A stretch of 57,411 nt of DNA from Defluviitaleaceae bacterium (GTDB lineage: Bacteria > Bacillota > Clostridia > Lachnospirales > WRAX01): positions 1 through 57,411 of the forward strand of contig WRAC01000012.1 of NCBI GenBank assembly GCA_009780415.1. Reading direction: 5' to 3'. Below are positions 49,365 through 49,539 of this stretch, piece by piece. The number at the start of each line of letters is the position of its first letter. Positions within the stretch are counted from its first letter, which is position 1. The notes beneath the pieces are model-generated. The model saw only the letters and a program-made list of their open reading frames with translations, was not told the DNA's origin and ran no database searches. Position numbers and translations under genes: made by a program.

Positions 49365-49539
49365 TAAATTAACGTGAGTTTGATGAAAAAATGAAAACCA
49401 ATTTTTTCATCAAACTTTTGATTATATTCGCACAATTTTGAGCAAAAACCGCTCAAAATTATGCTCATAACGTGAAAATTCCTTCGGAATTTCAACCGCT
49501 TCGCGGTTGGTTCGACTCCGTCGAACTCACGTTAAATTA
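49365..49539. repeat. 175-bp structured element with terminal inverted repeats and five hairpins
   Basis: Ends TAAATTAACGTGAGTTTGA and TCGAACTCACGTTAAATTA are inverted repeats of each other with two mismatches. Inside are a 16-bp perfect stem (AGTTTGATGAAAAAAT, 49377-49416), a 10-bp stem (AATTTTGAGC, 49434-49460), AAATTCC-TTC-GGAATTT (49476-49492), AACCGC-TTC-GCGGTT (49494-49508) and TTCGAC-TCC-GTCGAA (49511-49525). The right end provides the stop codon of the YeiH-type gene. No protein is encoded. Confidence 0.8.

Follow-up and report, generated by a model that had tools for sequence, protein, structure and literature searches.

Several families of short bacterial repeats, among them ERIC, RUP, BOX, Correia, and Nezha, are intergenic, 100-200 bp long, and self-complementary with multiple palindromes, and some of them have duplications; their movers are other ones or unknown. 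The element described here is likened to these families by description. Among IS982 insertion sequences, most members have ends that begin with AC, and the direct repeats measure 2-10 bp (PMC7335449). An IS982-derived MITE of about 240 bp, MITECca01, has been described in Cardinium cOegib (PMC9769881). Our element, found in a window of 57,411 nucleotides (the whole stretch of DNA that was analysed) of a Defluviitaleaceae bacterium, resembles MITECca01 in that it is short, non-coding, probably of IS982 parentage, endowed with the terminal repeats of that parent, and present in many copies. The two differ in that MITECca01 was reported from one Cardinium strain only, a host of another phylum, and no covarying hairpin array was reported for it. 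With IS982 insertion sequences (L062:160-1254; PMC7335449) our element has in common the AC-starting ACGTGAGTTCGA repeats, a 7-bp AT-rich duplication, and a GAT/GAC asymmetry, whereas the insertion sequence at L062 has a transposase gene and lacks the hairpin array. The open literature yielded no description of a covarying multi-hairpin IS982 MITE, a weak negative, as most subscription papers fall outside it. IS982 MITEs are thus already known, and a covarying multi-hairpin one that is common to several families appears to be new.

We propose, with a probability of roughly 0.92, that the 161 bp at 49372..49532 (plus strand) are an IS982-derived MITE, i.e., a non-autonomous transposable element, because an intact IS982 insertion sequence has the same ends and likewise a 7-bp duplication. 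The element contains no coding gene, and its length is under about 300 bp, as for a MITE. Its boundaries were set by the target-site duplication and by the alignment of about 35 copies. A perfect 7-bp duplication, TAAATTA, stands on both sides (49365..49371 and 49533..49539), and matching 7-mers lie beside many other copies. The original prediction of a 175-bp element must accordingly be trimmed: its outermost 7 nt on each side are the target-site duplication, which lies outside the element. The left terminal inverted repeat, ACGTGAGTTTGA (49372..49383, plus strand), matches the left end of the L062 IS982 (ACGTGAGTTCGAT) at 11/12 positions, and the right one, TCGAACTCACGT (49521..49532, plus strand), agrees at every position with the right end of this intact insertion sequence. 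Both ends of the window element begin with ACGTGAG when read inward, and thus with 5'-AC, as in most IS982 members.

The element sits between two minus-strand genes, one for a YeiH-like protein (Cons_hypoth698, Pfam PF03601; 49527..50495) and, downstream, one for an Asp/Glu/hydantoin racemase (Pfam PF01177; 48643..49344), whose start codon is ~20 bp from the left duplication. The original remark that the element ends in the stop codon of the upstream gene is right in substance: the TGA of the YeiH-like frame (49527-49529) lies within the terminal repeat. When the element and one duplication are removed in silico, the frame ends in ...IVNL*, at a TAA one codon earlier, instead of the ...IVNLT* read with the insert. 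The window copy landed at the YeiH-like stop codon, in the gap before the co-oriented racemase gene, which it could possibly affect.

The duplications were analysed in 35 near-complete copies. The left and right 7-mers are the same in 15/35, when 2.0 matches are expected by random re-pairing, and in 3 more of the 35 copies exactly 6 nt are common to both flanks (0.3 expected). The 15 matched copies include L039 and L069, which apparently represent one inherited insertion, given their matching flanks. The copies of genomes G037 and G050 are the most telling for duplication, because those of G058 favour few 7-mers (TAAATTA and TATATTA) and theirs vary among the copies: TACTTTA, TAAAAAA, TACAAAA, TATATTA, TACAATA, TATAAAA, TAATTCA, and TATATCA. 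Several copies have an imperfect duplication or none (e.g., L004, L006), and some diverged ones start with AT, not AC. For one copy of G058, a search for an empty site met no second genome of the same genus. Small extragenic palindromes in multiple copies could also be repeats of the REP/BIME type, moved by a REP-associated (Y1/RAYT) transposase. We regard this as extremely unlikely, since the copies have target-site duplications of 7 bp, as well as long terminal repeats that also occur in a DDE insertion sequence; Y1 transposases of the REP-associated kind are not known to make a target-site duplication.

The copies are dispersed over several families. In the element's own genome, of 2.53 Mb and 85 contigs, there are three, including that of the window; the other two, on contigs C26 and C25, are without hairpin H1 (described below) and the left terminal repeat. 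A covariance model of hairpins H2 to H6 (R1) matched 3 sites in this genome, 18 in G037, 27 in G050, and a single one in both G006 and G014; the other 53 relatives had no match. With strict filters, it found no genome beyond the element's own in a sample of 391 genomes from the class. G037 and G050 are two MAGs of another family than the window's genome, and there were 12 matches each, several of them partial, in G058 and G072, which belong to two further families. The order to which the window's genome belongs has copies in at least four of its families. The named records that have the right-hand end are all Bacillota MAGs, and the samples Lab288 and Cu122 among them are from the termites Labiotermes labralis and Cubitermes ugandensis (PMC7024585). 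Collections of phages and plasmids gave no match to the element, nor did an exact-pattern search of IMG/VR. A lack of copies and a degenerate sequence in close relatives had been named as the outcome that would speak against the element, and this did not occur.

Other repeats and diverged forms were encountered during these searches. The short matches in G028 and G035 were rejected as copies (an unrelated repeat and, probably, chance). The G028 loci (L007, L012, L015, L018, L021, L024, and L027) belong to a different dispersed repeat (GATAGTGTCAAAAGTTTTATGAAAAAATGAAAACCTCAAATTTGTCATTG...), which has only a short H1-like stretch in common with the query. In G072, L073 and its neighbours L075, L077, L079, L083, and L085 are ~58-bp pieces that match H1 plus little more; AAAATTA stands on both sides of L073, and from these flanks H1 alone may be a mini-MITE. 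Near position 1503 of L055 (own genome, C1:142543), a ~43-bp palindrome whose terminal repeats, ACGCGAGTTCGATG...CATCGGACTTACAT, are degenerate and whose flanks nearly match is possibly a decayed mini-element. Two elements lie side by side, with a shared flank between them, in L014/L051 (1-192) and L053 (170-349), from G050 and G037. The copy in G014 (L009) is a diverged relative in which both arms of the closing stem, AAAGCGAG/CTCGCTTT, have changed, which points to a sister subfamily whose terminal repeats differ.

When 392 genomes of the order were searched at the protein level, an intact IS982 relative came up in G295. This insertion sequence (L062:160-1254) starts with ACGTGAGTTCGAT, ends with GTCGAACTCACGT, is flanked on both sides by the 7-bp duplication TATTATA, and encodes an intact protein of 295 aa that scores 253.6 bits with the NCBIfam model transpos_IS982 (cut-off 130). 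It has the same ends as the MITE, ACGTGAGTTCGA...TCGAACTCACGT, and the same length of duplication. Even the difference between the two ends is shared: in the MITE, as in L062 and a second IS982 (L063), ACGTGAGTTC (or a variant of it) is followed by GAT on the left and by GAC on the right. In the element's own genome, the search for terminal repeats identified AACGTGAGTTCGACGGA on contig C5, ~100 bp before the frame of a damaged IS982 transposase, which NCBIfam recognises as IS982 in two pieces; the frame is frameshifted and cut at the contig end, so that the right end is unseen, and the left end reads GAC where that of the MITE reads GAT. Towards the end of C5 (L056, 2376-2499), the damaged IS982 gives way to other sequence in which a second frame begins (MRTSKNIHTEAEMELAKLL...); this may be another mobile element. 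The search of G037, G050, G058, and G072, of which G058 is one contig, turned up no IS982 transposase; in these copy-rich genomes the parent may have been lost, may have been missed in draft assemblies, or may have a more diverged transposase.

The copies, the duplications, and the identity of the ends with those of an intact IS982 are established, and we infer that an IS982 transposase is the mover of the element. An IS982-type DDE transposase, supplied in trans, would act through recognition of the terminal repeats ACGTGAGTTCGA...TCGAACTCACGT and place the element in AT-rich sites, mostly beginning with TA, where repair would leave a 7-bp (sometimes 6-bp) duplication. Among the natures originally considered, that of a multi-stem mobile repeat is the one borne out by the dispersed copies, the duplications, and the ends shared with an IS982 insertion sequence. 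That of a recombination substrate holds in the sense of a substrate for transposition, and not in other senses.

The interior of the element is extensively folded. When folded as RNA, the stretch 49365-49539 reaches -68 kcal/mol, against -27.7 +/- 3.2 for shuffled sequences (z = -12.8, with 0/200 as good), and its minus strand gives z = -10.2. The element itself (49372-49532), folded as DNA, gives z of about -10 to -11 on both strands, and the DNA fold consists of H1, H2, and then a cloverleaf in which the stem of H3 surrounds H4, H5, and H6. The dense five-hairpin array of the original prediction is therefore real. All positions that follow are on the plus strand, and all hairpins are supported by the fold and by covariation, except H6, which is supported by the fold and whose sequence is mostly constant. 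H1 (49377..49416) has a 16-bp stem and an 8-nt loop, and its 5' arm includes part of the left terminal repeat. H2 (49430..49464) has 13 pairs with one internal mismatch. H3 is a 6-bp stem between ACGTGA (49470..49475), an internal copy of the terminal repeat, and the terminal TCACGT (49527-49532), the last 6 nt of the right terminal repeat, and it closes the three-hairpin cloverleaf. Within it are H4 (AAATTCC-TTC-GGAATTT; 49476..49492), H5 (CAACCGC-TTC-GCGGTTG; 49493..49509), and H6 (GTTCGAC-TCC-GTCGAAC; 49510..49526), whose 3' arm belongs to the right terminal repeat. The three 3-nt loops predicted earlier, TTC, TTC, and TCC, are seen in this fold. Read on the minus strand, most loops of the small hairpins are GNA triloops with a C-G closing pair (10/15 distinct C-closed triloops). 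Loops of this type are known from DNA minihairpins of very high stability (Yoshizawa 1997, as cited in PMC6479982), and their presence on the minus strand is suggestive of DNA hairpins.

Hairpins placed between co-oriented genes might have been recruited by these genes as terminators or mRNA stabilisers, in place of mobility or as its by-product, and H1 indeed scores as terminator-like on the plus strand. For the two flanking genes, which are on the minus strand, H1 has the wrong orientation, and copies at many unrelated sites retain the structure; such a recruitment is therefore improbable. Transcription termination as the main role was rejected, because H1 is the only hairpin of this kind and lies on the strand opposite to the genes.

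The pairing is conserved through changes of sequence. RNAalifold, run unaided on 15 diverse copies, recovered the same six helices, with both sides changed and pairing kept in 22/49 pairs. In this alignment, paired cells make up 95.4%, compared with 82.2% for shuffles, and the signal is gone when partners are slid by one base. In 50 matches, 30/37 modelled pairs show two-sided (compensatory) change, in an alignment that was fitted to the model and so leans to structure, and in which copies from the same genome are not independent. Two-sided changes affect 8/12 pairs of H2. In H3, a switch from G-C to C-G that keeps the pairing is common to six sequences of one genus, and there are further paired changes in the 50-match set. 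The covariation of the interior, which the earlier analysis had proposed to look for in homologous copies, is thus established for six helices. The claim that a terminal stem encloses all the hairpins fares less well: 12-nt terminal repeats exist, but covariation supports the inner ACGTGA/TCACGT stem, which encloses three hairpins. The terminal repeat as a stem with itself shows no covariation and pairs no better than when shuffled, and was rejected as a structural stem in favour of the inner one.

Such very strong covariation of six helices, at an intercistronic place between two co-oriented genes of the window, is what one could expect of a conserved structured RNA (a small RNA, a riboregulator, or an mRNA-processing element) that was dispersed by chance. 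We consider this very unlikely, for three reasons. First, a search of the window with Rfam found only a tRNA elsewhere and nothing at the element. Second, mismatches in the stems are as often G.T as A.C (47 vs 38, p = 0.39; 21/20 in a smaller set). For an RNA, whichever its strand, one of the two types should be better tolerated, and their equal frequency gives no pointer to selection on RNA and no sign of wobble tolerance on either strand; it argues for a structure or self-complementarity at the level of DNA. Third, the IS982 ends and the target-site duplications account for the copies. The non-coding RNA of the original prediction is therefore not supported. A cause at the DNA level, whether DNA hairpins or arm-to-arm palindrome correction, fits better than selection on RNA.

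Within the reading as an IS982-derived MITE, we infer that it is as DNA that the hairpins are maintained: either the element benefits from extruded or single-stranded hairpins, or the arms of palindromes correct each other during replication. In the latter case, the stems would have no function, and template switching from arm to arm (quasi-palindrome correction) would make them perfect again; this has a little less than an even chance. It agrees with the equal numbers of G.T and A.C mismatches, with stems whose sequence is largely replaced yet still paired, and with the whole extra hairpins inserted in L029, L037, L082, and L036. It does not readily account for the inner stem H3, which covaries although ~50 nt of other hairpins lie between its arms, nor for the order of the hairpins, which is constant across families. 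Alternatively, and more tentatively, the covarying cloverleaf could be a selected DNA structure, folded as single strand or cruciform and used in transposition or in transposase binding. The internal copy of the terminal repeat would then pair with the true end of the element, an arrangement kept through sequence turnover in at least four families.

MITEs are usually viewed as eroded insertion sequences with an unimportant interior. In this IS982-derived MITE, the interior is instead the best-kept feature, since its pairing survives two-sided changes in several families. These copies provide a natural data set on whether DNA secondary structure aids DDE transposition or whether palindromes maintain themselves. 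They also carry a warning: strong covariation alone is no proof of RNA.
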